DNA of 64,000 nt from Streptomyces antimycoticus (GTDB taxonomy: Bacteria; Actinomycetota; Actinomycetes; Streptomycetales; Streptomycetaceae): assembly GCF_005405925.1 (NCBI RefSeq), contig NZ_BJHV01000001.1:8742001-8806000 (forward strand), in the 5' to 3' direction. The position numbers and the translations under genes are program-made. The notes under the pieces were generated by a model that was not told the origin of the DNA, ran no database searches, and was given only the letters and a program-made list of their open reading frames with translations. This document shows positions 5,132 through 26,606 of this stretch, one piece after another (the first letter of the stretch is position 1; every line of letters begins with the position of its first letter).

Positions 5132-5174
5132 GGTGGCCGGACAACGGGGTTTCGGGTGGTTACAGGAGAGTTCG

Positions 5175-6654: not shown

Positions 6655-6789
6655 AGAGGGGCCCCTTCCGTACGGAGGATCGGAACCTACCTGTCATCAA
6701 ACCCTGTCAGTAATCACCATCGGATCTGATGGGATTCGCGCCGCCGCGACCCCCCGGATCGCACGGGTTCCTTGGGCGCGTCGGTCACT

Positions 6790-6815
6790 TGTCGTCAAAC
6801 GATCGGTTGACGACA
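6790..6815. repeat. Inverted repeat, possible recombination subsite
   Basis: TGTCGTCAA and TTGACGACA are perfect 9-bp arms separated by 8 bp. The site lies about 136 bp upstream of the serine recombinase start, where resolvase binding sites of Tn3-type elements usually sit. It could equally be an operator of a lost gene. Confidence 0.4.
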
Positions 6816-7044
6816 CATAGCTGAGCGGGGCGTGCTCGCGGTGGGCGCGGACGGGTACCGGGCGCTGGTCGCCTACGGCGAGATCGCCCCGGGCTCCGGC
6901 AACCGGGGCGTGATCCTGGCCGTCGAGCAGGACGGGGCACCGCCGGCCCGACTCCGGCTGGTCGTGACCGGCGAGGTCACCGGTGGGCGCGACGTCAACG
7001 ACGTCGTCGAGCTGGACGTCGTGCGCGTCGAGCCCACCGGCTAA
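6811..7044 (+). pseudogene. C-terminal fragment of a molybdopterin-dependent oxidoreductase-like protein
   Basis: A frame that begins right after an in-frame TGA at 6808-6810 encodes about 77 residues (LVAYGEIAPGSGNRGVILA and VVELDVVRVEP). These resemble the C-terminal end of small actinobacterial molybdopterin-binding (sulfite-oxidase-fold) oxidoreductases. The catalytic N-terminal part is absent. A GTG at 6832 could start a 70-residue peptide but no convincing ribosome site precedes it. The gene probably lost its 5' end when the neighbouring mobile DNA inserted or deleted. Its TAA overlaps the stop of the convergent aldo/keto reductase. Confidence 0.5.
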
Positions 7045-8033: not shown

Positions 8034-8095
8034 GCGCGGATACTCCTCCTGCCCGGCGGACCGGGCGGTACCTCGAGGGCTGACGAACGCCTCCG

Positions 8096-8126
8096 AAACT
8101 AGGATTTGGAGCGCGCTCGAAGTCAA
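8096..8126 (-). promoter_or_regulatory. MerR-type promoter and operator of the aldo/keto reductase
   Basis: On the minus strand a -35 TTGACT (8121-8126) and a -10 TAGTTT (8096-8101) are separated by 19 bp, too long for an ordinary promoter but standard for MerR-family control. The spacer holds the perfect palindrome GAGCGCGCTC inside TTCGAGCGCGCTCCAA. This resembles the CTTGGAGT/ACTCCAAG-type sites of AdhR-like regulators. Confidence 0.65.
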
Positions 8127-8212
8127 GCCGGAGGACCGGCCCCCGCCGGCGGGTCAGGGTGAGGGTGAAACGGTCCACCGGCAACAGGTCGCCACAGGGC
8201 CCGGACACCGCG

Positions 8213-8342
8213 TAGACGGATCATCGATGTCCAGTTGCTCGGCCAGGTCCACCAGCTCCGGCGGCACCCCATCGAGCGGATCGTCGAAGAACCCGCCCGT
8301 GCAACGGACCGTTGCCAGCTGCACCGCGAACCCCGGCTTGTG
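8213..8342 (-). pseudogene. Tn3-family transposase N-terminal fragment
   Basis: About 44 residues on the minus strand (GFAVQLATVRCTGGFFDDPL, then DGVPPELVDLAEQLDIDD) match the N-terminal DUF4158-type region of Tn3-family transposases. There, a GFAVQL.TVR motif precedes a PxxVVxxLAxQL helix. Nothing recognisable of the long catalytic region follows. The fragment abuts an integrase fragment on the other strand, so the locus has been rearranged more than once. Confidence 0.55.
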
Positions 8343-8726
8343 ACGTCCCGGGACGACGGCCAGCAGGTCCACCTCCGGCTCGGAGACCCGCCCTCGCCCC
8401 TGCCCGAGCCCGTCGCTGATCTCGTCCGGGACTACCTTCGGTCACTCCCGGCCCACACACCCGCGGTGAACCTCTCCACCACCTGGCTCTTCCCCGGCCG
8501 CCGTCCGGGCCGGCCGATGAACCCGACCACCTTGCTCGGCCCCCTCCGCGACCTCGGTGTCCCGGCCCAACGAGCCCGCACCTCCGCCATCCGGCACCTC
8601 GTCCTCCAGGCCCCCGCGCCGGTCATCGCCAAGGCCCTCGGCTACCACGACAAGACCGCCACCCGGCTCGTCACCGAGGCCGGTGGCACCTGGAGCCGAT
8701 ACACCCCCGGCGACCGCGCACGGTGA
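8337..8726 (+). pseudogene. C-terminal remnant of a tyrosine-type integrase/recombinase
   Basis: The frame ending in TGA at 8726 encodes about 129 residues with VHLRLGDPPSPLPEPVADLV, WLFPGRRPGRPMNPTTL and ALGYHDKTATRLVTEAGGTW. This pattern is common at the C-terminus of actinobacterial phage-type integrase-like proteins. The N-terminal DNA-binding and most catalytic parts are missing, and the upstream boundary falls at the Tn3 transposase fragment. It is a decayed gene, not a functional recombinase. Confidence 0.6.
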
Positions 8727-8808
8727 CACCACCATCGCCACCCATCAGGAATACGCGACACCTCAACATGCGCGCCTACCAGTCTCACACCCGGTGTACG
8801 CGGGCGGC

Positions 8809-10705: not shown

Positions 10706-11123
10706 GGTTCCCCTGTAACTGTTCCTGGTAGTGCGGGAAAAGAGAAACGTAAAACAGCCATGTCGTAAGAGGACAGGGCCGGGACATCAAATGTCGCAAA
10801 AATCTCGGCAGAAGGTTGTTTCAGGGGGTCGGTAACGGTCAAGTGGCTGCTCGGAGCGGTATTCCGGGGCCCTCTCCGGCGTTTTGAGGCGTCAAAGGCC
10901 ATTGCGGTGAGAGGCCCTGAGAAAAGCCCTTTGCGAACCCGGTCCGGTAAACGACAGTTTCCGTTGTGTACGGGGACACCGGAAAATCCGGCCGCTACCC
11001 CTGATAGCGGGTCATTGCGGGGCTTCTCCGCACACCTGGGTGACCTGGAGGAGTGTCGTTCGTTGGGCGTCCTGCGCGGGCCGTCCCACCGTGGGCGCCG
11101 GCGCGGTGAGCCAGGGAGGGTGG
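10706..11123. other. Divergent intergenic region before the MMPL gene
   Basis: There is no convincing gene in these 418 bp. It holds two small inverted repeats: GACAT-CAA-ATGTC at 10783-10795, and CCGCTA/TAGCGG with a 7-bp loop at 10992-11010. It must carry the promoters of both the VC0807-type gene (leftward) and the MMPL gene (rightward). No clear -35/-10 pair stands out. Confidence 0.5.
10992..11010. promoter_or_regulatory. Small inverted repeat upstream of MMPL gene
   Basis: CCGCTA and TAGCGG form perfect 6-bp arms around CCCCTGA, about 115 bp before the MMPL start. It is a candidate operator or mRNA hairpin in the leader of the exporter gene, with no further support. Confidence 0.25.
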
Positions 11124-13364
11124 ATGTTCGTCCGGCTGGGGCGTTTCGACGCCGCGTGCAGGGTCTGGGTGCTCGCGGGGGCGGTGCTGGTGCTGGTGGT
11201 CTCCTGCTGGGCGTGTTCCGGGCTGTCCGGGCGGCTCAGCTACGGCGGGTTCATGGCACCGGCCGCCGAGGCGACCCGGGCGGCGGACGCGATCCGGAAC
11301 GAGGTGGGGGAGGGCGGCGCGGATGTCCTGGTGACCTTCCGCAGCAAGGAGCTGACCGCCTCCCGGCCCGCCTTCCGGGAAGCGGTGGAGGACGCGCTGC
11401 GCCGGGCGCCCAAGGGCACGGTGGACCGGGCGACGACGGCCTGGTCCTCGGCCAATCCGCTGCTGGTCTCCCTCGACCAGCACGCGACCGTGGTGCCCAT
11501 CCTGCTGAAGGGCGACGGGGAGACCGGCCGCACCCAGAGCTATCTGGCGCTGCGGGACACTCTGCGCGCACCGGGGTTCGAGGTCACCTGGACCGGGCCG
11601 AGCGCGATCATCTCGGAGATCGTCCAACGGTCCCAACGCGACCTGGTACGCACCGAGTTGATGGTGCTGCCGCTGATGATGCTGCTGATGGTGTTCGTCT
11701 TCCGGGGCGTGGTCGCCGCTCTGCTGCCGGTGGTCACCGGAGTCCTGGCGACGGCCGCGGCCCTCGCCGCGCTGCGCGCCGTGGCCGATGTCATCGAGGT
11801 CCCGTATGTGACGGTCAACCTCGTAGTGGCCATCGGCCTCGCCGCGGGTGTCGACGCCGGTCTGCTCATCGTCAGCAGATTCCGGGAGGAACTGCGGGCG
11901 GGACGCACCCCGGCGGAGGCCGTCGCCATCACCGTCGACACCGCCGGGCGGACGGTGGCGCTGTCCGGCGTCGTCATGACCTTCATCGCCGTGGGCCTCG
12001 CCTTCTTCCCGCTCGGTTTCGTCCGCGCGCTGGGCATCGGCGCGGCGGCCGGGCTGCTGGTGGGGGCCCTGGTGACGGTGACGGTGCTGCCCGCGCTGCT
12101 GTTCTGCCTGGGCGAGCGCGTGGACGCGCTCTCACCGGCCTGGCTGCGGCGCCAGGGCGGCCGCCGGGACGGCGCGCTGTGGGGCCGCGTGGCCCGTGCG
12201 GTGATGCAGAAGCCCATCGCCTACACCTGCGCCGTCTCCGCGTTGCTGCTCGCGCTCGCGGTGCCGTTCCTGCACACCGTCATCGGCTTCCCCGACCAGC
12301 GGATGCTGCCCGCCGGGGCACCGGCCCGGGTGGCGGCCGAACGCATGGAACACGACTTCGCCGTCTCCGGCCTCGGCACCCTGCAGGCCATCGCCACCTT
12401 CGACCACCCCGTGGACCGCGGCCGGGGCCACGCCGACCTGCTGACCTGGACGCGGAACGTCTCCGAACTCCCCGGCGCCCGTGGGGTGCTGGTGGCCGGG
12501 ACCACCGGGAACAAGGCCGTCATCTACGTCGGCCAGGACCAGCGGGTGGAGAGCGACTCGGCGAAGTCACTGGTACGGGCCGTGCGCGCGCTGCCCGTAC
12601 CCGGCGGCAGCGGTGTGCTGGTGGGCGGCGCGTCGGCCCTCGCCGTGGACACCATGGACACCTTCTACCGGCTGCTGCCCCGGGTGCTGGCCTTCATGGT
12701 GGTCACGAGCTTCGTGCTGCTCACCGTCGCCCTGCGCTCGCTCGTGCTCCCCCTCAAGGCGCTGGTGATGAACGGCCTGTCCATCGGCGCCTCCTTCGGC
12801 GCCCTCACCTGGATCTTCCAGGACGGACACGCCAGCCGGCTGCTCGGCGCCGAACCGACGGGTTACGTGGACGCGCTGGCCCCCATCGTCATGCTGTTCC
12901 TCCTCATCGCGGTGTCCATGGACTACGAGCTGTTCCTGCTGCTGCGCATCCGTGAGCAGTACCGCCTGCTCGGGGACGACCGGGAGTCGGTGGCGGTGGG
13001 GATCGAGCGCTCGGGGCGGGTGATCAGCGCCGCGGCGGCGGCCGTTCTGGTGGTGACGGCTTGTTTCGCGACCAGCAGTGTGGTCATGGTGAAGGAGATC
13101 TGCGTCGGTGTCTTCCTGGCGGTGCTGATCGACGCGGTGCTCGTACGGGCGGTCCTGGTACCCGCCGTCATGCGGCTGCTCGGCGCGGCGAACTGGTGGT
13201 GGCCCCGCTTCTCCCGGAGCTCCGGCCCGGCCGGGAGGTCCCGCCCGGGCAAGGGCGGGCGGAAATGGCGTACCGGCAAGGGCGGGCGACCGGAGGCCGC
13301 CCCGGAACACGCGGCACGGCTTCCGGCCCCCGCCGAGGCGTCAGCCGAACGTCAGCCGCGCTGA
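11124..13364 (+). CDS. MMPL-family (RND superfamily) lipid exporter
   Basis: A 746-residue membrane transporter with the two-half RND layout: one helix at about residues 16-36, a large outer domain, then a block of five helices, and the same again. The proton-relay positions are seen as GVDAGLLIVSRFREE in the first half, where the usual GVDY has Ala, and SMDYELFLLLRIREQY in the second. MMPL proteins export lipids and polyketide lipids in actinobacteria. The ATG at 11124 follows a GGGAGGG ribosome site. The gene opens the polyketide-lipid locus and overlaps the convergent secreted-protein gene by 24 bp. The Arg/Gly/Pro-rich C-terminal tail is cytoplasmic. The likely cargo is the neighbouring synthase product. 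Confidence 0.9.
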   Translation: MFVRLGRFDAACRVWVLAGAVLVLVVSCWACSGLSGRLSYGGFMAPAAEATRAADAIRNEVGEGGADVLVTFRSKELTASRPAFREAVEDALRRAPKGTVDRATTAWSSANPLLVSLDQHATVVPILLKGDGETGRTQSYLALRDTLRAPGFEVTWTGPSAIISEIVQRSQRDLVRTELMVLPLMMLLMVFVFRGVVAALLPVVTGVLATAAALAALRAVADVIEVPYVTVNLVVAIGLAAGVDAGLLIVSRFREELRAGRTPAEAVAITVDTAGRTVALSGVVMTFIAVGLAFFPLGFVRALGIGAAAGLLVGALVTVTVLPALLFCLGERVDALSPAWLRRQGGRRDGALWGRVARAVMQKPIAYTCAVSALLLALAVPFLHTVIGFPDQRMLPAGAPARVAAERMEHDFAVSGLGTLQAIATFDHPVDRGRGHADLLTWTRNVSELPGARGVLVAGTTGNKAVIYVGQDQRVESDSAKSLVRAVRALPVPGGSGVLVGGASALAVDTMDTFYRLLPRVLAFMVVTSFVLLTVALRSLVLPLKALVMNGLSIGASFGALTWIFQDGHASRLLGAEPTGYVDALAPIVMLFLLIAVSMDYELFLLLRIREQYRLLGDDRESVAVGIERSGRVISAAAAAVLVVTACFATSSVVMVKEICVGVFLAVLIDAVLVRAVLVPAVMRLLGAANWWWPRFSRSSGPAGRSRPGKGGRKWRTGKGGRPEAAPEHAARLPAPAEASAERQPR

Positions 13365-13937
13365 GCCGCTGCCCGAGCCGCCGGCCAGCCTGCCCTGCGT
13401 CCAGCAGTCCCGGCCCACACCGCGGTCGTTCACCGTGATGTCGACGCCCACGGAGCCCGCGAAGAGGCCCCTGGCGATCTGCACGTTCTCGGCCCTGAAG
13501 GTGACGTTGCCGTCGGCGTCGTTGGTGAAGCGGAGCTTGCCGCCACCGGTGCTGGTGCCGACCCGCGCACCGCCCGGCCCGATCCACTCCGCCGTGCCCG
13601 TGCCGGTGCCGACGGCCGCGGCGCAGGTGCCCTCGGCCATGCCCTCCAAGGTGACCCGCACCTTGGAGACCACGGCGGAGCCGAGGCAGTTTCCGGTGAT
13701 GGTGGCCCGGTAGCCCGCGACGCCGCTCTGGTCGCGCACGAGCACCAGGTCGGGGTTGGTGGGCTCCACCGTGGCCGTGCCCTTGCAGGTCAACGGCAGG
13801 GGTACGGCCGGCGCTTCGGCGGCCGCGCGGGCCGGGGGCTGCTGCCCCAGTAAGGCCACGGCGGTCGCCGAGGCCGCCAGCAGCCCCAGGGCCGCCGTAT
13901 GGACGAGGGCGCGCCTGCGCCCGTTCGCTGAAGTCAC
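13341..13937 (-). CDS. Secreted protein of unknown function
   Basis: This 198-residue protein has a clear signal peptide: basic GRRR, a hydrophobic core LGLLAASATAVALL, then an Ala-rich cleavage region ARAAAEA. The mature part is rich in Gly/Thr/Val with spaced Cys residues (LTCKGTATVEP, GNCLGSAVV, GTCAAAVG, RDCWTQG), consistent with a disulfide-stabilised beta-sandwich. No enzyme motif is visible. The GTG start at 13937 has GGGAGAAG upstream. It is convergent with the MMPL gene and divergent from the acyltransferase, separated from the latter by a 25-bp palindrome. It may be a lipid-binding or carrier protein for the exported product, but that is only inferred from position. Confidence 0.8.
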   Translation of the reverse strand: MTSANGRRRALVHTAALGLLAASATAVALLGQQPPARAAAEAPAVPLPLTCKGTATVEPTNPDLVLVRDQSGVAGYRATITGNCLGSAVVSKVRVTLEGMAEGTCAAAVGTGTGTAEWIGPGGARVGTSTGGGKLRFTNDADGNVTFRAENVQIARGLFAGSVGVDITVNDRGVGRDCWTQGRLAGGSGSGSARLTFG

Positions 13938-14030
13938 GCACTTCTCCCAGGTCGGGCCACACGAAGGAGTGGCCGCTTCCGATGATTGATCCGTCCGATG
14001 ATGGCGGCCGGAGGAGGCGTGGCCGTTGGT

Positions 14031-14055
14031 CCGTGCGGGTGATTCACCCGCACGG
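14031..14055. promoter_or_regulatory. 25-bp near-perfect palindrome between divergent genes
   Basis: Arms CCGTGCGGGTGA and TCACCCGCACGG are exact reverse complements around a single central T. The site sits between the secreted-protein gene (leftward) and the acyltransferase (rightward), an ideal place for a repressor controlling both. No regulator gene is found in the polyketide-lipid locus, so the binding protein is unknown. Confidence 0.6.
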
Positions 14056-14187
14056 TCACCAAGGTGTACCCGTTGTCGTGAAGGCGCCCGCCGACCGCTG
14101 ACGCGGCGGCCCCGGACGGTGACTTGGGCGCCGCCCGGGCGTTGTTCCGGCTGCCGGTCGGTGGCACCGGCGGAGGGGTGGTGGAGG

Positions 14188-15573
14188 ATGACGGGGAAGC
14201 GCGGGAAACCGAGCGGGAAGCCGACGGGGAAGCCGACCGGGCAACCGACGGGGAAGCCGCCCGGGAAACTGCCGTTTCCGGACGCGGCTCTCGTGGCGTA
14301 CGGGAAGGCGCACCCCGCCACCGGACTGACCATCGGCGTGGTGCTGGAGCTGGAGGGCCCGCCTCCCGACCGGCCCCAACTCGACGCCTCACTCAGGCCG
14401 GTGGCGGAACTGCTGGGCACCGGGCCCTCGGACGGCGGCCCGTGGACTGGCGCGGACGGCAACGCTGAGGCCGCTCCGGAGCGGGGCCTGACCGACGTGG
14501 CGCATGAGGCGCTGGCCAGGCCGCTGGAGCCGCACCGCTGGTCCTGCTCCACGGTGGCGGGGCTGCCGGGCGGCACGTCCGCCCTGGTGTGGCGAGCGGA
14601 CCACCGGCTGCTCGACGGGGCGGGAGTGGTCGGCGTACTGGCCGCCTGGACGGGCGCCCTTGGCGCGGACGCTCTTGTCCCGGGTGCTCATGGACCCGGC
14701 GCCCATGGCCCGGGCGCCGCCACGGCGTCCCCCGCGCGGGCCGAACCGTGGCGGGCGCGCGGCGCCCTGCACCGTGCCGTCACCGATCCGCTGCGCGCGG
14801 CCTGGCTGTGCGGCACGCCCCTGCTGGAGCGGCGCCGGGGGAGCGCGGCGGAAGCCGACGGTGGCCCGTCCGCCACCCTCTCCTACGCCTGCGCGGAGAC
14901 GGACCTCGGCCTGCTGCGTGGCATCGCCCGCCGCCACGGCACGACCGTCAACGATGTGTACCTTGCCGCGCTGAGCGGGGCGCTGCGCGCCCAGCCCCAA
15001 CTCCACGGCCCCGATGGGCAGATGCGCGCCCTGGTCCCGGTGAACGTCCGGGGGCCCGGAGACGCGGCCGTGCTGCGCAACCGCCATATCCCGCTCCGGA
15101 TCCCGCTCCCCGTGGCGGAGCCCGACGCCGGACGCCGCCTCGCCCTCGTCGCCGCCCGCACGGCGGGCCGCGCCCGCGCGCTGCGCCATCCGCTGGTGCG
15201 CGCGGTGTTCCGCTCGGTCCCCGCCGTGGCCGGGGGATGGTGTTTCGAGCGGTACTTCGACCCGGGCCGCGCCACCCTGCTCGCCAGCAATGTGCGGGGT
15301 CCCTCGTCCCCGCTGGTGGTGGCCGGGCGGCGGGTCCTGCGCATACTGCCGCTGAACTTCCTCCCGGCCGGACACCGCCTGTCCACCGTGCTGGCCACCG
15401 CCCAGGGCCGGGCCGTGGCCGGCTTCACCACCACCGAGCCGCGCTCGGCCGCCGAGTCGTTCGCCGCCGCCTGGCTGGAGGAGTTGCGGGTGCTGGCCAC
15501 GGCGGGGCCGTGGGGGAGGGTTCAGGCGGCCGGGGCGGATGCCACTGCCTCTCCGGCCGCGTCGGCGAGGTAG
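14188..15573 (+). CDS. Wax ester synthase/DGAT-like acyltransferase
   Basis: A 461-residue protein of the WS/DGAT and condensation-fold group. The acyl-transfer motif reads ADHRLLDGAG, a DHxxxDG form of HHxxxDG in which the second, catalytic His is kept. The C-terminal half shows TVNDVYLAALSGALR and LLASNVRGP, typical of the DUF1298-like domain of wax ester synthases. Such enzymes join an acyl-CoA or acyl-ACP to an alcohol. The N-terminus is unusual, with GKP/TGKP repeats encoded by 12-bp tandem repeats. The ATG at 14188 is chosen for the upstream GGAGG. It overlaps the convergent reductase gene by 52 bp. Esterification of the synthase product is inferred from context. Confidence 0.8.
   Translation: MTGKRGKPSGKPTGKPTGQPTGKPPGKLPFPDAALVAYGKAHPATGLTIGVVLELEGPPPDRPQLDASLRPVAELLGTGPSDGGPWTGADGNAEAAPERGLTDVAHEALARPLEPHRWSCSTVAGLPGGTSALVWRADHRLLDGAGVVGVLAAWTGALGADALVPGAHGPGAHGPGAATASPARAEPWRARGALHRAVTDPLRAAWLCGTPLLERRRGSAAEADGGPSATLSYACAETDLGLLRGIARRHGTTVNDVYLAALSGALRAQPQLHGPDGQMRALVPVNVRGPGDAAVLRNRHIPLRIPLPVAEPDAGRRLALVAARTAGRARALRHPLVRAVFRSVPAVAGGWCFERYFDPGRATLLASNVRGPSSPLVVAGRRVLRILPLNFLPAGHRLSTVLATAQGRAVAGFTTTEPRSAAESFAAAWLEELRVLATAGPWGRVQAAGADATASPAASAR
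14195..14272. repeat. 12-bp tandem repeats encoding GKP motifs
   Basis: Imperfect units of the form GGGAAGCCGACC repeat about five times at the start of the acyltransferase gene, giving GKPSGKPTGKPTGQPTGKPP. This proline/lysine-rich leader is not part of the WS/DGAT fold. It may be an extended linker or a translation-affecting segment. Confidence 0.65.
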
Positions 15574-16679
15574 GTGGCGTCCAGGGGCTTGGGGTCGGGC
15601 AGGCCGTCGGTGTCCTGGAGCAGGTTGCTCCGGTCGTACGTCCTGCGCTGCGCGGTGAAGACCAGCAGCGAGGCCAGGTGGTGCGCGAACAGCGACTCGT
15701 ACGGGTCCGGGTCGTCCAGGTCGTCCACGAGGTCCAAGCGAAGCCCCGGGTACAGCCGCTCCAGGACCTTCACGGCCGTCGCGAAGGGTGTGTTGTGCGG
15801 ATGGGTCAGATGCACCGTGCGCACCCCCGCCGGGGCGCCCGGACGGGCCGCCGCCGCACGCGCGGCGCACACCGCCGCATGGGCCGCGTACTCCACCGGG
15901 ACGAGGTTCAGGGCCCCGCCGCTCCCCGCGCGGACCCGCACCCGCAGACCGCTGCCGTGGGCGTCGCCACCGTCGAGGAGCGAGGCGAGCGCCGGGTCGT
16001 CCTCGGCCCTGCGGCGCAGCGCCTCGTGGATGAGGAACGCCAGCACCGCCAGCGGCTGGCGCTGTCCGCTGCCGTGGACGGGCCGGTCCGAGACGAGCAG
16101 CGACGGCCGCAGGATCGTGGCGCCCCGGCCGGTGCGGGCGCTCCAGGCGTGCACCGCGCGTTCGGCGGTGTACTTGCTCTCCTCGTACGGCGTCAGGAAG
16201 CCGTGGCCGCCGTCCAGGTCGTCCTCGCGGATGTGCCCCTCGGCGCGTCCCCCGGCGACGTACGCGGTGCTCAGATGGACGACCCGCGCCCCGGCCGCCT
16301 CGGTGGCCAGGTCGAGGACGCGCCGGGTGCCGAGGACGTTCGCCTTGAACAACGGCACCGGGTCGTCGTGCAGCGCGAGGTGCGCGGCACAGTGCCAGAC
16401 CACCGAGCACGCGTCGGTGAGGGCGCGGCGCTCGCCGTCGGTCAGGCCGAGGCCGGGCAGGGTGAGGTCGGCGGACACGTACCGCAGGCGCCCGCGCGGC
16501 GTCGCGGCGCCCGCCAGACCGTCGAGCCCGTCGAGAGCCGTCTCGACCCGCGCCCGCAGACTCCCTTCCCCGCCCCGGCCGAGGACGGTGATGGGCCGGT
16601 CGTCGCCGTCTTCGGCGAGCAGGTGGCGCAGGATGCGGCTGCCGAGGAAACCGGTCGCGCCGGTGAAGAGTACGGCCAT
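15522..16679 (-). CDS. NAD(P)-dependent thioester reductase-like enzyme (SDR, NAD_binding_4)
   Basis: A 385-residue extended short-chain dehydrogenase. It has the nucleotide loop FTGATGFLGSRI at the N-terminus and an active-site Tyr-Lys pair in TPYEESKY. It also carries the features of the male-sterility/fatty acyl reductase group (FKANVLGTRRVLDLA, VVHLSTAYVAGG, ATILRPSLLVSD). Relatives release acyl chains from CoA or carrier proteins as aldehydes or alcohols. Here it is free-standing, next to a synthase that has no thioesterase, so reductive off-loading is a reasonable inference. The ATG at 16679 has TGGAG upstream. It diverges from the synthase gene and is convergent with the acyltransferase. 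Confidence 0.8.
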   Translation of the reverse strand: MAVLFTGATGFLGSRILRHLLAEDGDDRPITVLGRGGEGSLRARVETALDGLDGLAGAATPRGRLRYVSADLTLPGLGLTDGERRALTDACSVVWHCAAHLALHDDPVPLFKANVLGTRRVLDLATEAAGARVVHLSTAYVAGGRAEGHIREDDLDGGHGFLTPYEESKYTAERAVHAWSARTGRGATILRPSLLVSDRPVHGSGQRQPLAVLAFLIHEALRRRAEDDPALASLLDGGDAHGSGLRVRVRAGSGGALNLVPVEYAAHAAVCAARAAAARPGAPAGVRTVHLTHPHNTPFATAVKVLERLYPGLRLDLVDDLDDPDPYESLFAHHLASLLVFTAQRRTYDRSNLLQDTDGLPDPKPLDATYLADAAGEAVASAPAA

Positions 16680-17103
16680 GGCGGGCTCCAGACGTCGAAG
16701 GGCGGGTGAGGGGCATTGGGATCCGGCGGCGCGATCCGGCAGCGGATCTGAGGGGGCACACGATGCGGTGGCGGTTCCGACCGTGCCGGGACCGCGCCGG
16801 TGACCGTGCCGGGGCGCGTGCCGAGGACACCACACCGACCGCACCCCGCCGCGCCGTCCGGCCCGCCGTATGCACGCTCTGTACGCGCTCTCTGTACGGG
16901 CCCCGTCCGCACACATCACCCGAATGGGCTAAGCGGCCCGGGCCGGCTCCGTTCACCTCACCGAGTGCACTTCGCCGCCGTTCCCTCCAACGGGTGTACA
17001 GGCGGCCTCGGCGGTCGTCCGTCTGGCCTAGTGTGCGTCGCTGCCGAGAGCGTGACGCGGGCTTCCCGCCGGTGTCGCGAAGTGACTGGAGAAAGGCCCC
17101 GGT
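16680..17103. other. Divergent promoter region between reductase and polyketide synthase
   Basis: These 424 bp contain no convincing gene. ATCCGGC is repeated near 16720-16740, and the 9-bp CTCTGTACG occurs twice (16877-16885 and 16890-16898), 13 bp apart. These may be regulator sites. The synthase ribosome site GGAGAAAGG begins at 17088. Confidence 0.45.
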
Positions 17104-20100
17104 ATGCGTCAGGACGAGGCCGAACCGATCGCCGTGGTGGGGGCGGCCTGCCGGCTTCCCGGTGGCATCCGGGACCTGGACGGGCTCTGGGAGGCCCTGG
17201 AGCAGGGCAGGGACCTGGTGGGGGAGGTGCCCGCGGACCGGTTCGACGCGCGCCTGTTCACCGACCCCGCCGTGCCGCGCCGGGGCAAGTCGTACACCGC
17301 GGCCGGGGGTTTCCTCGACGACGTGGCCGGATTCGACGCCGCCTACTTCGGGATCTCCCCCAAGGAAGCGGCCCACATGGACCCCCAGCACCGGCTGCTG
17401 CTGGAGATGACGGCCGAGGCGCTGGACGACGCCGCCGTGGACCCCGCCACGCTGGCCGGTTCGGACACCGCAGTCTTCGTCGGCATCTCGGATGCCTCCT
17501 ACGGCGCGCTCCAGATGTCCGCGCTGCGCACGGTGGGCGCCTACACCATGTCGGGCGCCGCCTCGTCGATCGCCGCCAACCGGGTCTCGCACGCCTTCGA
17601 TCTGCGCGGCCCCAGCATGGCGATCGACACCGCGTGCTCCTCCTCCCTCGTGGCCCTCGACCGCGCCTGCCGCACCCTGTGGGAGGGCGGCGGCCGGGCC
17701 GCGGTCTGCGGCGGGGTCAATGTGCTGCTCAGCCCGTTCCACTACGTGGGGTTCTCCCAGGCGTCGATGCTCTCCCAGCGGGGCCGGTGCGCCTCCTTCT
17801 CGGCGCAGGCGGACGGGTTCGTCCGGGCCGAGGGCGGCGGCGTGGTGCTGCTGAAGCGACTGTCGGACGCGCTGGCCGACGGCGACCGGATCCACGGGCT
17901 CGTCCTGGGCACCGGCAGCAACAGCGACGGCAGGACCATGGGGCTCGCGCTGCCCAGCCCCGAGGCGCAGGAGCGGCTGCTGCGCGAGGTCTACGACCGC
18001 GCCCGGGTGCACCCCGACGAGTTGGTGTACTTCGAGGCGCACGGCACCGGCACCCCGGTCGGCGACCCGCTGGAGGCCCTCGCCATCGGCCGGGCCCTCG
18101 GCGTACGCCGGATCTCCGGAGACCTCCCGCTCGGCTCGGTGAAGACCAACCTCGGCCACCTGGAGCCCGCGTCCGGCATGGCCGGTCTGCTCAAGGCCCT
18201 CCTGGTGCTGCGACACCGCACCGCACCGGCCTCCCTCCACGCCGAACCGCCGCACCCCGACATCGACTTCGAGGGCCTCGGACTGCGGCTCACCACCCGG
18301 CCCACGGCCCTCGCCCCCGCCACGACCGGCGGGCGCGCCGTCGCCGGGGTCAACTCCTTCGGCTTCGGCGGCGCCAACGCCCACGCCATCGTGGCCGAAC
18401 CCCCGCCCCTGCCTGACCGCCCGCAACCCCCGCGCTCACCGGTGCCCCTGCTCGTCTCGGCCCGCACCGCCAAGGCACTGTCGGAGGCGGCCGAGGCCAC
18501 GGCCGCACACCTGGACGAAACGACCCCCGACGACTTCTACGACCTGGCCCACACCTCCTGCCTCCGCCGCGGCCGCCACGAACACCGCGCCGTCGTCTGG
18601 GCCACCACGCCTGGGGAGGCGGCGCGGGGGCTGCGCGCCTTGACGGCGCCGGAGCCCGAGCCGGGGCGGCCGGGTGTCGGCGGGGCTGGTGGGGAGCCGA
18701 CCGCGCTCGACGGGGCGTCGGCCGCACCCACTGGGGAGTCGACAGCGCTCGCCGCCGAGCCGACCGCGCCCATCGGCACACCGGCTGCGCCCATCGGCAC
18801 ACCGGCCGCGCCCACGAGCGAGCCGACCGCGTCCACCGGAGAATCGGCTGCGCCCGGCGGAGAATCGGCCGCGCCCACCGGCACACCGGCCGCGCCCACC
18901 GGCGTACCGACCGCGCCCACCGGGGCCTCGACCGCCGCTCCCACCCGGGAGCCGGCCGCCCCCGGCGCGGTGAGTCCCGCCGCCGACAGTGGGCGCGTCG
19001 CCTTCGTGTTCTGTGGGAACGGCTCGCAGTGGGCGGGCATGGGGGCGGACCTCTTCGACGCCGATGCCGTGTTTCGTCGCGCGGTGCGCGAGGTCGACGC
19101 CGAGCTCGCGCCGCGTCTGGGGTGGTCGGTGGCCGATCGCCTCACCGCGCCTGTCGGGGAGGCGGACCTCGGGGCGACGGAGGTGGCCCAGCCCCTCCTG
19201 TTCGCCGCGCAGTTGGGCATCACCGCGGCGCTGCGCGCCCGGGGGATCGAGCCCGCTATGGTCGTCGGCCACAGCGTCGGGGAGGTGGCCGCCGCCCACA
19301 TCTGCGGAGCGCTGTCCCTGCCGGACGCGGCGCGGGTGATCGCCGAACGTGGCCGGGTGCAGGGGACCACGGTCGGCAGTGGCCGGATGGCCGCCGTCGG
19401 GCTGTCCGTCGACCGGGCCGCGAAGGCCCTCGCCGGGTACGGGGAGAAGCTGGAGATCGCCGGGGTCAACAGCGCCGAGGACGTCACGGTGGCCGGTGAC
19501 GCCGAGGCGCTGGCGCTGCTCGGCGCGGAACTCGCCGTCGAGGGCGTCTTCTTCCGCGACCTGGGCCTCGACTACGCCTTCCACAGCCGCCACATGGATC
19601 CCATCGAGGACGAACTCCGCGCCGGCTTGGCCGACGTGACGCCGTCGCCGGTCCGGGTGCCGTTCTACTCGACCGTCACCGGCTTCCGCGCCCGCGGCAC
19701 CGATCTCGGCGCGGCGTACTGGTGGCAGAACGTGCGTCGCCCGGTGCTCTTCGCGGACGCGGCGCGGCGCGCCCTCGCGGACGGGGCCGGCATCCTCCTG
19801 GAGATCGGCCCCCATCCCGTCCTGCGCGCCTACCTTCGGCGCGTGGCGTTCCGGCGCGGAAAGACCGGCATCGGGACCGGCATCAGCCCGGGCCCCGGCC
19901 CCGGCCGCACTGTCGTCCTGCCGACCCTGCGCCGCGGGGCGGATGGCCCCGCCGCCCTCGGCGCGGCGGCGGCCGGAGTGCTCGCGGCCGGGGCCTCGGC
20001 CGATCTCACCCGGCACTTCCCGGTGCCGGGCCGGGTCACCCGGCTCCCCGCCTACCCGTGGCAGTACGAGCGCCACTGGTCCGGCACCCCCCGCTCCTGG

Positions 20101-23100
20101 GCCAACTCCAGCGGGGACGGCGTCATCGTCCACCCGCTGCTCGGCGAGCGCATGCCCACCGCCGTCCCCAGTTGGGAGGGCGCGATCGAGCCCGTCCTCG
20201 TGCCCTGGCTCGCCGACCACCGGCTCGGCGGATCCGTCGTCATGCCGGCCACCGGATACGCCGAGGCGCTCCTCGCCGCGGGGCGCGCCGTGCACGGACG
20301 GCCGGTCGAGGTGGCACACCTCGACGTCAGCGCCAGCCTCGTGGTGCCCTGGGCGGACGCCTCCGCCGTACGGCTGCGGGTCGGCCTCGACCCGGACACC
20401 ACCCTCGCCACGGTCACCAGCACCGACGAGCGCGGCCCCGAACCACGGGCGCACGCGCGGGCCCGGGTGCGCCCGCTGCTGAGCCCACGGCCCGAGCCGG
20501 TGGACCCGGAGCGGCTGCGCGCACGGTGCACGACGCGCGTCAGCGGCGAGGAACACTACGCCGCCTGCGCCGAGGTGGGGCTCGTCTACGGGCCCGCGTT
20601 CCGGACGCTGGACGAGGTGCGCCTGGGGGCGCGGACCTCGGTCGCCACCTATCGCCACGAGGCCCCGGGCGCCCCGTACACCGCGCATCCGGCGCTGCTC
20701 GACGGAGCCCTCCAGACCGGTGTCGCCCTCCTCTACGACCGGCTGCGGGAGCGGGGCGCCTATCTGCCCGCGTCCATCGGCGCGGTGCGGGTGTGGTCGG
20801 CGCCGTCGCCCACCGGGATCATGTGGGTCACCGAACGCGAGGCCACCGACAGCGAGATCTGCTGGGACATCACGGTCGCGGACGCCGACGGCACCGTCAC
20901 GGCCCGCCTGGAGGAGTGCCGGCTGCGCCTCGTCCCGATCGCCCGCACCACCCCCGTCGCCCTCCATCACACCGTTCCGCGGGCCGCTCCCCGCGCCCAC
21001 CTCCCGGCCGCGCCCTCGCCCCTGCCGCCCCCCGAGGCCATCCTCCGGGACGCCGCCGCGCGACTGGACGCCGTACGGGAGCGGTGGCGCGAGGCCCGCT
21101 ACGACCTGACCTCGTGTCACGACGAGGAGCTGACCGCGCGCTCCGCCGCCGCCGCGCTGGCCCGGCTGCTGCCCGACCCCGCGGCGCCGTTCACCGCCGA
21201 CGACCTCGTGGCGGCCGGTATGGAGGAGCGCCACCGCCCCCTGATCGCCCTGCTCGAACCCCTCCTGCTGCGCCGCGGCCTGCTCACCGAGACCCCCGGC
21301 GGCCGATGTCTGACGCCCGGCGCGCGCCACACCCCGCCGCCGGTGCGCGAGGCCCTCGTCCGGGCCCCCGGGGATGTGCACCGGATCGCCCTTGCGACCC
21401 ACCTGACCCGGCACCTGGCGGACGTCCTCACCGGGCGCGCGAGCGCCCTGGCAGTGCTCAGCGCCGAATCGGCCGCGCACCTCCTGGAGCAGTACTACGA
21501 CACCGCGCCGACCTCCCGCTTCCACAACCGCCTCGCCCAGACCCTGCTCCGCGCCCTGCTCGCCCACTGGCCCGCCGACCGCGCGCTGCGCGTTCTGGAG
21601 ATCGGCGCCGGCACCGGCGGCATGACCGCGGCGCTGCTGCCCCTGCTGCCCGCCGACCGCACCCGCTACCGCTACACCGATGTCTCACCGGCCTATCTGA
21701 CCCGCGCCCGCAACCGCTTCGGCGACTACGACTTCGTCGAGTACGGCACCTTCGACCTGGACCGGGACCTCGCCGAACAGGGTTACCACCCACAGGGCTT
21801 CGACCTCGTCGTCGCCGCCAACGCGCTGCACACGGCCAAGGACCTGGAGCCCGCGCTCGGCCGCGTGGCCTCGCTCCTCGCGCCCGGCGGACACCTGCTG
21901 GCCTTCGAATGCCATGAGCCGGAGATCCTGCTCCCCGTCTTCGGTGCCCTCGACAGTTTCCACCACCGCACCGACACCGGCCTGCGGCCCGGCTCCCCGC
22001 TGCTGACCCGCGAGCAGTGGCCCGCGCTCCTGCGCCGGTGCGGCTTCACCTCCTGTGCCCGTACCGGCGACACCGAGCCGCCCGGACGCGACCACGCCTC
22101 CGTCTTCCTCGCCGCGGCCGGTGGCGCCCCCTCCCTCGCCGCCGCACCGCCGTCCCCCGCCCCGTCCGCCGCGTACATCGTCTGCGGCGACACGGCGGAC
22201 GACCCGCTGCCCCACGCCGTCACCGAGATGCTGACCGCACACGGCGCCGGGCACAGCGTCCTCACCGACGCCCACACCGACGCCGCCGCCTGGACCCGGG
22301 CGCTGACCGAGTCCGGCACCGGCGAGACGACCGTCGTCCTGATCCTGGGCGGCGCCGAACCCGACGACGCCGAGCAGGCCGTCGCCCGCGCCGCCCACGC
22401 CGGTCAGACGCTGCGGGCCGTCGCGGAGGCGCACCGGTCCCTCGGCTCACCGGCCGGGGTCCGGCTGTGGCTCGTCACCCGGCCGCACGGCGCCGAGGCG
22501 ACCCCCGGACCGATCACCCATCCCACCGACGCCGCCGCCTGGGGCGTGGCACGCTGCCTGGCCAACGAGGAACCCGATCTGCGCGGGCGCCGCCTGAGCC
22601 TGTGCCGGAACGACGATCCGGCCGCGGATGCCGCCCGGCTGGTCCGCGAACTGCTCGACACCGAGGCCCCCGAGACCGCCGAGGAGGAGGACGAGATCGT
22701 GCTCACCGCGCACGACCGCTTCGTCCCGCGCGAGCGCGCCCTGCCGCCCGCCGTCCCCCTCGCCGACGGCGCGGCCCCGCCGCCGTTCGCCCTGCGGGTG
22801 CGCCGGCCCGGCCTCTCCTACCGCCTCGCCTGGCAGGAGATCCCCGCGCCGGTCGCGGGTCCCGGAGAAGTGGTCGTGGAGGTGCGCGCGGCCGCCCTGA
22901 ACTACCGGGACATCATGCAGACGGTCGGGCTGCTGCCCACGGAGGCACTGGCCGGCAGCCCGCGCGAGGAGAACCTCGGGCTCGAATGCGCGGGCGTGGT
23001 CACCGCCTGCGGGCCCGGGGTGGACCGCTTCGCGCCCGGGGACCGGGTCGTCGGACTGCTGACCGGGGCGCTCTCGTCCCACGTGGTCAGCCCGGCGCGC

Positions 23101-25137
23101 AACCTGTGGCCGATCCCCGCGGGCGTCACCTTCGCGGAGGCCGCCAGCGTGCCCGTCGCCCTGTGCACCGTTCACTACAGCCTGCTGTACACCGCCCGGA
23201 TGCGGGCGGGGGAGACCGTGCTCGTGCACGGCGCGGCCGGTGGCGTCGGCCTCGCGGCCCTCCACTACGCACGGGCACACGGCGCCACCGTCATCGCCAC
23301 CGCGGGCAGCGAGCCCAAACGCGACCTGCTGCGCGCACTCGGCGTGGAACACGTCCTCGACTCGCGCTCGCTGGACTTCACCGTCCAGGTCATGGACGTG
23401 ACCGACGGCAGGGGAGTCGACATCGTCCTCAACTCCCTCTCCGGACAGGCCCTGGCGCGGGGCCTGGAGGTGCTCCGCTCCGGCGGCCGCTTCATCGAAC
23501 TCGGCAAGCGCGACTTCTACGAGGACCGGACCCTGCCGCTGCGCCCCTTCGGCTCCCATATCTCCTTCCACGGCGTGGACCTGACCACCGTGCTGCGCGA
23601 CCCCCGGCTGCTGGGGGACCTCCTGGAGGACGTGGGGCGGACCCTGGGAGACGGCCGGGCGTCAGAGAAAGGCCCGGAGTTCCAGTCGCTGCCGCACACC
23701 GTCTTCCCCGCCGCCCGCGTGGCGGACGCCTTCCTGCTGATGCGCCACTCACGCCATATCGGCAAGGTCGTCGTCACGTTCGACCCGCTGGACGAGCCCT
23801 GCGCCGTCGAACCCGCCTCCTCGCTCGCCCCTCCGCCCGCACGGGCGACGCCCATCGCGCCCCGCGCACCCCAACTCGACCCGGACGCCTCCTATTTGGT
23901 CACGGGGGGCACCAGCGGCCTCGGCGCGGCCACCGCACAGTGGCTCGCCGGGCTCGGCGCCCGGCACCTCGCCCTGGTGAGCCGCAGCGGCGCCCACGGC
24001 CCGGAGGCCGCCGCCGTGCGCGACGCGCTCGCCCCGGACGGCGTGCGGGTCACCGCGTACGCCGCGGACGTCGCCGACGCGGAGGCGATGCGCCGGGTGC
24101 TGAAGGACATCGACGAGAACGGCCATCCGCTGCGCGGTGTGGTCCACGCGGCCATGGCCCTGGACGACGCACCCCTCGCCGAGCTGACCGCCGAGCGGAT
24201 GAGCGCCGTCCTGCGACCCAAGATCGCGGGAGCCCAGGTTCTGGACACCCTGACCCGAGGGCGTCCGCTGGACTTCTTCCTGTGCTACTCCTCCACGACC
24301 GCCATGGTGGGCAACTTCAAGCAGTCGGCCTATACGGCGGGCAATCTCTATCTGGAGGGCCTGGCCCGGCTGCGCCGACGACACGGCGAGGCGGCGCTCA
24401 CCCTCGCCTGGGGCGCCATCGGCGAGATCGGTTACGCGGCCCGCAACGACCTGCTCGACTCCCTCCACGGCCTGGGCATCGAGCCCCTGGCCCCGCACAC
24501 CGCCCTCGACCACGGCCGACTGCTGCTCGGCGACGACCGGCCGGACGCCCCCGCGGTGGTGGGCGTCTCCCGGACGGACTGGTCGCGCGCCGCCGTTCTG
24601 CTGCCGCTGCTGCGCGCCCCGCGCCTCGGTGGCCTCGTACCGCCCCAGGTGGGGGACGGGGAGGCCACCCGCGAGGAACTCCTGCGCCGGCTCTCCCTCA
24701 TGGACGAGGAGACCGCCCTCGCCCACCTCGTGGACCAGCTCACCCGCCTGCTCGCGGAGGTCCTGCACATGGACCACGAGGCCCTCGACCCGCACCGGCG
24801 CCTGGACTCCTACGGCATGGACTCGCTGATGGCCGCTCAGGTGCTCGTCTCGCTCAACCAGCGCTACGAACTCGACATCCCGCCCATGGAACTGCTGCGC
24901 AGCAACGGCACCATCGCCGAGTTCGCCAGGATCGTGCAGCTCCGGCTGGGGTTGCAGGTCACGGCTCCTCCCGGCGCATCACCGGGCCCCGGCATCCCCC
25001 GCCCCGCGACGGAATCCCCCGCCGCGGCCGTGGAATCCCCCGCCGCCGCCCCGGAGCCCCCCGCACCGGCGGGACCGCTGCCCGTCCCGGCCCAGGCCGG
25101 ACCGGACCGCTCGGTCACGGCAGGCGGTGCGCGGTGA
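17104..25137 (+). CDS. Iterative-type highly reducing polyketide synthase, KS-AT-DH-MT-ER-KR-ACP
   Basis: The gene encodes 2677 residues forming one complete reducing module with a C-methyltransferase. KS (8-430): DTACSSS Cys178, His313 and His352. A Pro/Ala/Thr-rich linker spans about 520-627. AT (632-940): GHSVGE Ser724 and YAFHS at 824-828, a mixed specificity motif. DH (1007-1285): His1039 in HxxxGxxxxP and Asp1200. MT (about 1435-1680): LEIGAGTGG at 1498-1506. ER (1893-2215): HGAAGGVG. KR (2255-2440): VTGGTSGLG, LDD and Tyr2410. ACP: GMDSL Ser2574. There is no thioesterase and no docking domain. All catalytic residues are kept, so it should make a fully reduced, methyl-branched chain, probably iteratively from malonyl units. 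Product and chain length are unknown. Its last bases overlap the diiron gene as GTGA. Confidence 0.95.
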   Translation: MRQDEAEPIAVVGAACRLPGGIRDLDGLWEALEQGRDLVGEVPADRFDARLFTDPAVPRRGKSYTAAGGFLDDVAGFDAAYFGISPKEAAHMDPQHRLLLEMTAEALDDAAVDPATLAGSDTAVFVGISDASYGALQMSALRTVGAYTMSGAASSIAANRVSHAFDLRGPSMAIDTACSSSLVALDRACRTLWEGGGRAAVCGGVNVLLSPFHYVGFSQASMLSQRGRCASFSAQADGFVRAEGGGVVLLKRLSDALADGDRIHGLVLGTGSNSDGRTMGLALPSPEAQERLLREVYDRARVHPDELVYFEAHGTGTPVGDPLEALAIGRALGVRRISGDLPLGSVKTNLGHLEPASGMAGLLKALLVLRHRTAPASLHAEPPHPDIDFEGLGLRLTTRPTALAPATTGGRAVAGVNSFGFGGANAHAIVAEPPPLPDRPQPPRSPVPLLVSARTAKALSEAAEATAAHLDETTPDDFYDLAHTSCLRRGRHEHRAVVWATTPGEAARGLRALTAPEPEPGRPGVGGAGGEPTALDGASAAPTGESTALAAEPTAPIGTPAAPIGTPAAPTSEPTASTGESAAPGGESAAPTGTPAAPTGVPTAPTGASTAAPTREPAAPGAVSPAADSGRVAFVFCGNGSQWAGMGADLFDADAVFRRAVREVDAELAPRLGWSVADRLTAPVGEADLGATEVAQPLLFAAQLGITAALRARGIEPAMVVGHSVGEVAAAHICGALSLPDAARVIAERGRVQGTTVGSGRMAAVGLSVDRAAKALAGYGEKLEIAGVNSAEDVTVAGDAEALALLGAELAVEGVFFRDLGLDYAFHSRHMDPIEDELRAGLADVTPSPVRVPFYSTVTGFRARGTDLGAAYWWQNVRRPVLFADAARRALADGAGILLEIGPHPVLRAYLRRVAFRRGKTGIGTGISPGPGPGRTVVLPTLRRGADGPAALGAAAAGVLAAGASADLTRHFPVPGRVTRLPAYPWQYERHWSGTPRSWANSSGDGVIVHPLLGERMPTAVPSWEGAIEPVLVPWLADHRLGGSVVMPATGYAEALLAAGRAVHGRPVEVAHLDVSASLVVPWADASAVRLRVGLDPDTTLATVTSTDERGPEPRAHARARVRPLLSPRPEPVDPERLRARCTTRVSGEEHYAACAEVGLVYGPAFRTLDEVRLGARTSVATYRHEAPGAPYTAHPALLDGALQTGVALLYDRLRERGAYLPASIGAVRVWSAPSPTGIMWVTEREATDSEICWDITVADADGTVTARLEECRLRLVPIARTTPVALHHTVPRAAPRAHLPAAPSPLPPPEAILRDAAARLDAVRERWREARYDLTSCHDEELTARSAAAALARLLPDPAAPFTADDLVAAGMEERHRPLIALLEPLLLRRGLLTETPGGRCLTPGARHTPPPVREALVRAPGDVHRIALATHLTRHLADVLTGRASALAVLSAESAAHLLEQYYDTAPTSRFHNRLAQTLLRALLAHWPADRALRVLEIGAGTGGMTAALLPLLPADRTRYRYTDVSPAYLTRARNRFGDYDFVEYGTFDLDRDLAEQGYHPQGFDLVVAANALHTAKDLEPALGRVASLLAPGGHLLAFECHEPEILLPVFGALDSFHHRTDTGLRPGSPLLTREQWPALLRRCGFTSCARTGDTEPPGRDHASVFLAAAGGAPSLAAAPPSPAPSAAYIVCGDTADDPLPHAVTEMLTAHGAGHSVLTDAHTDAAAWTRALTESGTGETTVVLILGGAEPDDAEQAVARAAHAGQTLRAVAEAHRSLGSPAGVRLWLVTRPHGAEATPGPITHPTDAAAWGVARCLANEEPDLRGRRLSLCRNDDPAADAARLVRELLDTEAPETAEEEDEIVLTAHDRFVPRERALPPAVPLADGAAPPPFALRVRRPGLSYRLAWQEIPAPVAGPGEVVVEVRAAALNYRDIMQTVGLLPTEALAGSPREENLGLECAGVVTACGPGVDRFAPGDRVVGLLTGALSSHVVSPARNLWPIPAGVTFAEAASVPVALCTVHYSLLYTARMRAGETVLVHGAAGGVGLAALHYARAHGATVIATAGSEPKRDLLRALGVEHVLDSRSLDFTVQVMDVTDGRGVDIVLNSLSGQALARGLEVLRSGGRFIELGKRDFYEDRTLPLRPFGSHISFHGVDLTTVLRDPRLLGDLLEDVGRTLGDGRASEKGPEFQSLPHTVFPAARVADAFLLMRHSRHIGKVVVTFDPLDEPCAVEPASSLAPPPARATPIAPRAPQLDPDASYLVTGGTSGLGAATAQWLAGLGARHLALVSRSGAHGPEAAAVRDALAPDGVRVTAYAADVADAEAMRRVLKDIDENGHPLRGVVHAAMALDDAPLAELTAERMSAVLRPKIAGAQVLDTLTRGRPLDFFLCYSSTTAMVGNFKQSAYTAGNLYLEGLARLRRRHGEAALTLAWGAIGEIGYAARNDLLDSLHGLGIEPLAPHTALDHGRLLLGDDRPDAPAVVGVSRTDWSRAAVLLPLLRAPRLGGLVPPQVGDGEATREELLRRLSLMDEETALAHLVDQLTRLLAEVLHMDHEALDPHRRLDSYGMDSLMAAQVLVSLNQRYELDIPPMELLRSNGTIAEFARIVQLRLGLQVTAPPGASPGPGIPRPATESPAAAVESPAAAPEPPAPAGPLPVPAQAGPDRSVTAGGAR

Positions 25138-26069
25138 GGGAACCACAGCCGCGGGGCCGGTCCACGCCCACCCCCACGGGCACCCCACGCCAGACACCGG
25201 CCGAGGTGGCCGGACGCCTGCTGCGCACCGCGGCCAAGCACACCTACGACCCCGCCCTCGCCATCGACTGGGACGCCCCGCCCGAGCCCGGTCACTGGTA
25301 CCTCCAGCCCGAGCGGATGTCGCTGTACGCCACCCCCACCTGGCACCGGCTGAGCGAGGAGCGGCGCCTCGCGCTCTCCCGCAGCGAGTGGGCCAACATG
25401 ATCAGCATGGCCACCTGGTTCGAGCTGACCTTGATGCAGATGCTCACCGGCCAGCTGACCGCCCGCGATCCGGCGTCGCCACGCACCCACTACGCGCTGA
25501 GCGAGGTGGCCGACGAGACGCGCCACGTCGCCATGTTCGGCCGGGCCCTCGGCACCCTCGGCTGCCCGGCCTACCGGCCGCCCGCCCTCGTCCGGCACCT
25601 GGGCCGGGCGGTGCTCCCGCGGCTGCGCGGCGCGAGCCTGTTCGCGGCCGCGCTGCTGATCGAGGAGGTCTACGACCGTTTCCAGCGGGAGGCCATGGGC
25701 GACGAGCGGGTGCAGCCCCTCGTACGGCAGGTGTCGCGTCTGCATGTGATGGAGGAGTCGCGGCACATCCGCTTCGCGCACTCCGAACTCCTGGACGCCA
25801 CGCGCGGCAGGTCGGGTGCCGTGCTGGAGTTCCACCGGCAGCTCACCGCCTGGTGCGCGATGCTGGCCATGAGCACGTACACCAACGCCCCGATCTACCG
25901 GGCCGTGGGCCTCGACCCGCGCCGCGCCGCCCGGGAGGCCCGCGCCAATCCGCACTTCCGGCGGACCATGCGCTGGGCGGGCGAGCGCCTGGTCGCCTTC
26001 CTCGCCGACGCCGGACTGATCACCGCGCTCCAGCGCTCCCTGTGGCGCCGGAGCCTCCTGCTCGGCTGA
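25134..26069 (+). CDS. AurF-like non-haem diiron oxygenase
   Basis: A 311-residue helical protein related to the p-aminobenzoate N-oxygenase AurF family. Carboxylate and His ligands of a ferritin-like diiron centre can be seen: EVADETRHVAMF, EEVYDRFQRE and EESRHIRFAH, plus Glu in TWFELTLMQML. The GTG start at 25134 overlaps the synthase TGA as GTGA, so the two genes are translationally coupled and almost certainly act in one pathway. Members oxidise amines, but others oxidise carbon centres. With no amine visible in this pathway, hydroxylation or oxidative cleavage of the acyl chain is as likely as N-oxygenation. Confidence 0.88.
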   Translation: MREPQPRGRSTPTPTGTPRQTPAEVAGRLLRTAAKHTYDPALAIDWDAPPEPGHWYLQPERMSLYATPTWHRLSEERRLALSRSEWANMISMATWFELTLMQMLTGQLTARDPASPRTHYALSEVADETRHVAMFGRALGTLGCPAYRPPALVRHLGRAVLPRLRGASLFAAALLIEEVYDRFQREAMGDERVQPLVRQVSRLHVMEESRHIRFAHSELLDATRGRSGAVLEFHRQLTAWCAMLAMSTYTNAPIYRAVGLDPRRAAREARANPHFRRTMRWAGERLVAFLADAGLITALQRSLWRRSLLLG

Positions 26070-26130
26070 ACGCCCCCCGCGGGCGCTGAACATCCCGCGG
26101 GCGCTGAACACCCCCGGGGTGCACGGCACT

Positions 26131-26414
26131 TCAGATGAAGATCGCGATGGCCTCGGTGGTCAGTTCACCGGTCCCGGGGTTCCAGTCGCGCACCTTGCCC
26201 AGGCAGCGCGCCGGGAACGTGCCCTCGTGGCCGGCGTCGTTGCGCAGCCCGTCCGTCGCGCACAGGACACGGACCTGCGGCCCCTGGACCGGGAACCCAT
26301 GCGGGTGATGTGCACCCTGATGCCGTGTTTCATCAGGAGGCGCTGGACCTTCTCGTCCTCGAAGAACTCCGACTTGGAGGCGATCTTGCCTTCGCCCCGC
26401 CCCTCACGCCGCAC
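26131..26414 (-). pseudogene. Short frame-disrupted remnant
   Basis: The minus strand from GTG at 26414 reads KSEFFEDEKVQRLLMKHGIRVHITRMGSR. This resembles the start of actinobacterial solute-binding/VWA-type proteins, where SEFF..VQxLL..HxIRV.VTRMGSRE occurs. About 40 codons in, the sense switches frame to VRVLCATDGLRNDAGHEGTF and ends at TGA 26131-26133. One added base would make a 94-residue frame, but the two halves do not look like one known protein. It is best read as a chimeric leftover between the polyketide locus and the next gene. Confidence 0.35.
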
Positions 26415-26606
26415 TTCGCGCGCTCGGTTAACGCCTCAAAGCGGCGCTTTTCGGCCACCTTTGGTGCGTACCTGGCAGTGATCTCTTCCGGTGGCGAACC
26501 TGTGGGGCGTGAAAGTGCCCACTGATCCCCCGTCACTTTGCCCCTCCGTCATCCCCTTCATGTTGCCCCCGTCATGTTGATCCACCGTCAAGGAAGGATC
26601 CGCCTC

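Follow-up and report, generated by a model that had tools for sequence, protein, structure and literature searches.

Six adjoining genes of Streptomyces antimycoticus raise the question of whether a polyketide synthase (PKS), an acyltransferase, an oxidising enzyme and an exporter serve one lipid pathway. They lie in a 64,000-nucleotide stretch (contig NZ_BJHV01000001.1, positions 8,742,001 to 8,806,000; hereafter the window), part of an 11.17-Mb genome. An original prediction, made from the letters alone, had recognised an MMPL transporter, a secreted protein, a WS/DGAT-like acyltransferase, a free-standing thioester-reductase-like short-chain dehydrogenase/reductase (SDR), a reducing PKS and an AurF-like diiron protein, and all six are confirmed within window positions 11124–26069. 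Each gene is a member of a known family; the combination has no matched known product, and our literature search found no paper recognisable as describing the six-gene set. We propose, with a probability of about 50%, that they form an accessory block of 15 kb devoted to a single exported polyketide lipid, which would be built iteratively, methylated from S-adenosylmethionine (SAM), reduced, released reductively, esterified, oxidised and exported. The product, substrates, step order and export in this proposal are what we infer.

To see how the set behaves as a unit, we compared the flanks in related genomes. Two of them, G120 and G396, carry the right-flank sensor gene at 93–94% and keep both flanks, with the whole block missing (window 10954–26132 by flank comparison; no strand applies). 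G120 joins window position 10953 to 26133 with 24 bp between, and in G396 the alignment breaks off at about 11029 (11104 when aligned more loosely) and resumes at 26417, leaving out about 11030–26416. The SDR was not found in either genome, nor was the MMPL gene at E ≤ 1e-120. Because both genomes keep the flanks without any of the block, the six genes have been gained or lost together as one unit. The G+C content of the block is 0.748, against 0.714 and 0.706 beside it. All six genes are present in three sister species (G408, G189 and G079) at 83–98% protein identity in the best piece. These species are collinear with the first 44–48 kb of the window at 91–97% DNA identity, gaps aside, and the sharing of the six genes in these species therefore shows only common descent. 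The ratio of non-synonymous to synonymous substitution rates (dN/dS; Nei–Gojobori, best aligned piece) was 0.09–0.49 in 18 of 18 gene-by-genome comparisons with the sister species, with no stop in the aligned part, indicating purifying selection.

The largest gene of the block encodes a single-module reducing type I PKS (17104–25137, forward strand, 2677 aa). KS, AT, DH, cMT, ER, KR and ACP follow one another in this one protein, as seen by Pfam and by a catalytic motif in each domain, and no thioesterase was found among its Pfam matches; the KS-to-ACP reducing module with a C-methyltransferase and no thioesterase had been correctly foreseen. Since the module is single and complete and Pfam revealed no second PKS gene in the block, the module is probably used iteratively. 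The AT carries GHSVGE and YAFHS, which we take to mark malonyl rather than methylmalonyl specificity, and it would thus load malonyl. The nearest solved relative of the protein is MAS (865 bits). Relatives listed for residues 1000–1700 include proteins of 85–97% identity from S. violaceusniger, S. yatensis and S. malaysiensis and one of 63% from Peterkaempfera bronchialis. In the proposed pathway, the PKS would iterate on malonyl units, its cMT supplying methyl branches from SAM and its KR, DH and ER reducing the chain. The source genome holds 141 ketoacyl-synthase domain matches altogether, and an open frame of 1167 residues situated some 10 kb to the left of the window also contains a ketosynthase domain (G000:C1:8732131-8732955).

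Chain release would fall to the SDR (15522–16679, reverse strand, 385 aa), which is assigned this role because the PKS lacks a thioesterase; with NADPH, it would free the ACP-bound chain as an aldehyde or alcohol. It has the PF07993 NAD-binding male-sterility domain (5e-37) and the YxxxK motif of a thioester-reductase SDR, with Y165 and K169 invariant across 18 aligned SDRs, and matches TIGR01746 at 109 bits (3e-31), below the cut-off of 213. The WS/DGAT-like acyltransferase (about 14188–15573, forward strand, 461 aa, start codon estimated) may then esterify the released chain with a second acyl chain. It passes the Pfam cut-offs (PF06974, 4.6e-8; PF03007, 1.8e-6), scores 124 bits against TIGR02946, under the cut-off of 310, and reads DHRLLDG where HHxxxDG is canonical. 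The MMPL-family protein (11124–13364, forward strand, 746 aa), with PF03176 in two stretches (5.2e-77), is a presumed lipid transporter that would move the product across the membrane. The small secreted protein (13341 to about 13937, reverse strand, 198 aa) has no Pfam match; its structure model (mean predicted local distance difference test, pLDDT, 70.9) has eight strands, a predicted beta-barrel that could act as a carrier outside the cell. Its gene contains a single TTA (codon 29), with none in the other five, a possible bldA control point.

How far the SDR is tied to such a pathway was assessed in other genomes. A search of 392 genomes of the genus gave SDR matches at E ≤ 1e-25 in 56, including that of the window and excluding G120 and G396. 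Genomes other than the window's gave 60 matches; we took stretches of up to 19.9 kb around 59 of these, and 20 control stretches from 20 of the SDR-bearing genomes. As several SDR stretches are short contigs, the neighbour counts are lower bounds. A ketosynthase lies near the SDR in 55 of 59 loci versus 2 of 20 controls (Fisher p = 4e-12; 1e-11 without the three sister species), and a WS/DGAT gene in 26 versus none (p = 8e-5; 2e-4 without them). AurF occurs near it in three loci, all of them the sister species, and in no control. By best-matching ketosynthase query, and leaving aside plasmid locus L284, the loci comprise 20 with a reducing PKS, 12 with a type II-like ketosynthase, 23 with a polyunsaturated fatty acid (PUFA)-synthase-like one and 4 without a ketosynthase. 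MMPL genes accompany 10 of the 12 type II-like loci and none of the 23 PUFA-like ones, and WS/DGAT genes 17 of 23 PUFA-like, 3 of 12 type II-like and 4 of 20 reducing-PKS loci. The SDRs of all reducing-PKS loci share a single clade of the SDR tree with those of L249, L250 and L284, the PUFA-like SDRs form a separate clade and the type II-like SDRs are split into two groups. The match between clades and chain-builder types suggests that the SDR has largely stayed with its chain builder. Among these loci, L084–L095 and part of L233–L248 repeat a cluster of a PfaD-like gene, a KS-AT-ACP protein and the SDR, often with WS/DGAT, FMO-like and ABC transporter genes. At 15348–17120 of L284, the Streptantibioticus cattleyicolor plasmid pSCATT, an SDR relative (48–60%) adjoins a 98-residue KR-like piece; no full reducing PKS was found in the 33 kb of this locus, which is perhaps a remnant.

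The same survey also weighs against a single six-gene pathway. With the sister species set aside, 17 reducing-PKS loci remain. One of them (L070) has WS/DGAT nearby, one (L075) has MMPL and none has AurF; 7 show the divergent SDR/PKS arrangement of the window, and in the other 10 the two genes are co-directional. MMPL genes show no significant enrichment around the SDR (14/59 versus 2/20, p = 0.16; 0.27 without the sister species). Of the six genes, the WS/DGAT-like one shows the weakest constraint (dN/dS 0.31–0.49, 8–30 gap columns). In G438, where the closest MMPL relative seen (70%) occurs, the secreted protein (57%) is convergent with a 68–70% MMPL at 6.86 Mb of a 7.09-Mb contig, and a head-to-head SDR/PKS pair (SDR 62%, KS 79%; all seven PKS domain queries matched, in what is called as two reading frames) lies at 0.33 Mb, 6.5 Mb away in linear coordinates. 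In the 40 kb around this MMPL pair we found no SDR, no AurF and no convincing WS/DGAT, and no AurF relative was found in G438 at E ≤ 1e-20. S. tremellae, with a 78% PKS and no secreted-protein match, is a counter-case to coinheritance. The lack of the other genes at most distant SDR/PKS pairs, the separate position of the MMPL pair in G438 and the non-significant MMPL enrichment would favour a pathway made of the head-to-head SDR/PKS pair only, with or without the coupled AurF-like gene, the MMPL, secreted and WS/DGAT-like proteins having separate functions. We consider this unlikely, though a serious contender. It does not sit well with the joint absence of all six genes from G120 and G396, nor with L077, where the SDR, WS/DGAT and MMPL stand together beside a type II-like KS and an ACP, a set seen again in L078 and L079. 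The distribution of the secreted protein also speaks against it. Of the 394 family genomes drawn, 2 contain it, the window's genome included, and its matches at E ≤ 1e-5 make up four protein clusters, among them that of the window. For each of the other three, the longest listed contig is equal in size to that of a close PKS relative (922628, 5400668 and 348900; pairs P0047/P0051, P0048/P0061 and P0049/P0066), which suggests that the two are linked; in G438 they share a genome. The coinheritance of the rare MMPL/secreted-protein pair with the nearest synthases, in few lineages, is the best evidence that the exporter belongs to this pathway. Read together, the SDR and synthase form the wider core of a layered gene set, WS/DGAT and AurF are lineage additions, and MMPL and the secreted protein are a second, very rare module, present but unlinked in G438, which has the closest outlying SDR/synthase pair. 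The grouping first suggested thus holds as one block and as an SDR–ketosynthase association, and is not supported as a set of neighbours generally conserved with the synthase, which partly fulfils a refuting outcome that the original prediction had named; SDR, WS/DGAT and MMPL recur together beside another chain builder in three loci.

The oxidation step depends on the AurF-family protein (25134–26069, forward strand, 311 aa; PF11583, 2.7e-82). Because its GTG start (25134) overlaps the PKS stop TGA (25135–25137), translational coupling to the PKS, as had been predicted, is likely; a longer open reading frame (25127–26089) is in the wrong frame and has no Pfam match. The model (pLDDT 93.6) has a ferritin-like fold and aligns best with CmlI and AurF, at 12–14% identity. 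Seven putative ligands (3 His, 4 Glu), assigned by residue spacing against PMC12101540, are invariant in 30 of 30 rows, so that family, fold and 3 His/4 carboxylate site are those of the AurF type. According to PMC12101540, the ligand pattern is largely unique to N-oxygenases, and dimetal halogenases carry QExxH in place of DExxH; our protein has DExxH (at position 127, 28 of the 30 rows have D and 2 have E), and a CylC-type dimetal halogenase was rejected. The ligand pattern counts against the exported-lipid pathway, and Pfam recognised no amine-forming gene among the six. Family, best structural matches, invariant ligands and DExxH would together fit a nitrogen-containing product, the enzyme being an N-oxygenase whose amine substrate would arise from the released aldehyde through an aminotransferase with its gene outside the block. 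We hold this to be improbable: the block has no recognised aminotransferase or amide-forming gene, the identity to AurF and CmlI is low, E207 stands at the position of AurF Asp226 (equivalence by spacing; PMC12101540), and four relatives of 48–49% adjoin fatty-acid-type genes. More remote still is the loss of the carbonyl carbon of the SDR aldehyde through the diiron protein to give a branched hydrocarbon, in the manner of the cyanobacterial reductase and deformylase. The best PDB sequence match of the family profile is 6d9f, weak at E 0.016, whose title names aldehyde deformylating activity, but this entry ranks 41 in the Foldseek list, far under AurF and CmlI, and is not among the best 50 VIA-align rows; the diiron gene occurs in only 3 of the 20 reducing-PKS SDR loci, the sister species, and the WS/DGAT-like enzyme would be left without an alcohol substrate. 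In the exported-lipid pathway that we prefer, the AurF-like enzyme would add an oxidation to the chain. In favour of this pathway, AurF, MMPL, KASIII, ACP and KS stand together in 4 of 11 AurF-centred loci (Pfam on L132 only). Four loci from four genomes (L131, L132, L135 and L136) hold KASIII, ACP, KS, MMPL, AurF-like and short-chain dehydrogenase genes, an unrecognised-looking fatty-acid-type cluster. In P0046, a 223-residue protein of Streptomyces sp. NPDC005568, PKS docking and KS matches precede an AurF part, a gene fusion or an assembly error.

Among known systems, HglE and a thioester-reductase protein of heterocyst glycolipid synthesis yield a long-chain alcohol by releasing the PKS product reductively; the synthase there is of another type, and WS/DGAT, MMPL and AurF are not known to take part. 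The Streptomyces clusters with PUFA-like or type II-like ketosynthases share a related SDR, often with WS/DGAT (PUFA-like) or MMPL (type II-like). They differ in the chain builder, a KS-AT-ACP protein beside a PfaD-like one (L084) or a KS and an ACP (L077), and in the absence of AurF from the stretches fetched. Mycobacterial phthiocerol dimycocerosate (PDIM)-type loci (MAS, PapA5, MmpL7, LppX) also combine an iterative reducing type I PKS, an acyltransferase and MMPL to make a methyl-branched lipid, and MAS, FadD28 and PapA5 engineered in E. coli give multimethyl-branched esters (PMC5064953 for both and PMC7261415 for the loci). The original prediction had drawn the PDIM comparison and had rightly set the methyltransferase and diiron enzyme apart from it. 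The cMT domain and the putative malonyl-type AT motifs depart from MAS in domain order and in methylmalonyl use, so the methyls are expected from SAM, not methylmalonyl-CoA. The block also has a separate release SDR and a coupled AurF-family enzyme, its acyltransferase is WS/DGAT-like and not a recognised Pap protein, and none of the six genes matches an AMP ligase that could be a fatty-acyl-AMP ligase (FadD) partner. The block thus resembles PDIM-type loci in logic, not in membership; 'PDIM-type' is too strong a label, as is 'generally conserved set'.

Several features lie around the block. None of the five relatives compared (G408, G189, G079, G120 and G396) has window 5794–8798 in its aligned region; this stretch holds a resolvase-like fragment (6340–6654) and an aldo/keto reductase (7041–8126). 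Three of the five (G079, G120 and G396) also show no alignment to window 4192–5768, where a zinc alcohol dehydrogenase frame is followed by one in which a dehydrogenase tail (residues 2–40) is joined to a TetR regulator. Close to the right of the block, at 32376–34393, Mur-ligase-like and CapC genes resemble poly-gamma-glutamate capsule genes.

In summary, the locus is a layered, lineage-limited and uncharacterised lipid cluster, for which the general reading of a methyl-branched, exported lipid is plausible. A bolder and tentative possibility is that Streptomyces run mix-and-match lipid factories, in which one SDR release clade works with three kinds of chain builder, often with WS/DGAT or MMPL and sometimes both. 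The block would then be the fullest version seen, adding coupled diiron oxidation and a dedicated MMPL/secreted beta-barrel carrier to place an exported, oxidised, methyl-branched wax-like ester on the cell surface. Mycobacteria are the best-known source of exported polyketide lipids. If the proposal is true, a Streptomyces block with genes for synthase, release, ester formation, oxidation and export would offer a convenient system for how MMPL proteins and their outside partners handle lipids, and could be a source of branched waxes. The comparison of loci also yields a rule open to testing across many strains, namely that a ketosynthase cluster bearing an SDR of this clade releases its chain reductively.

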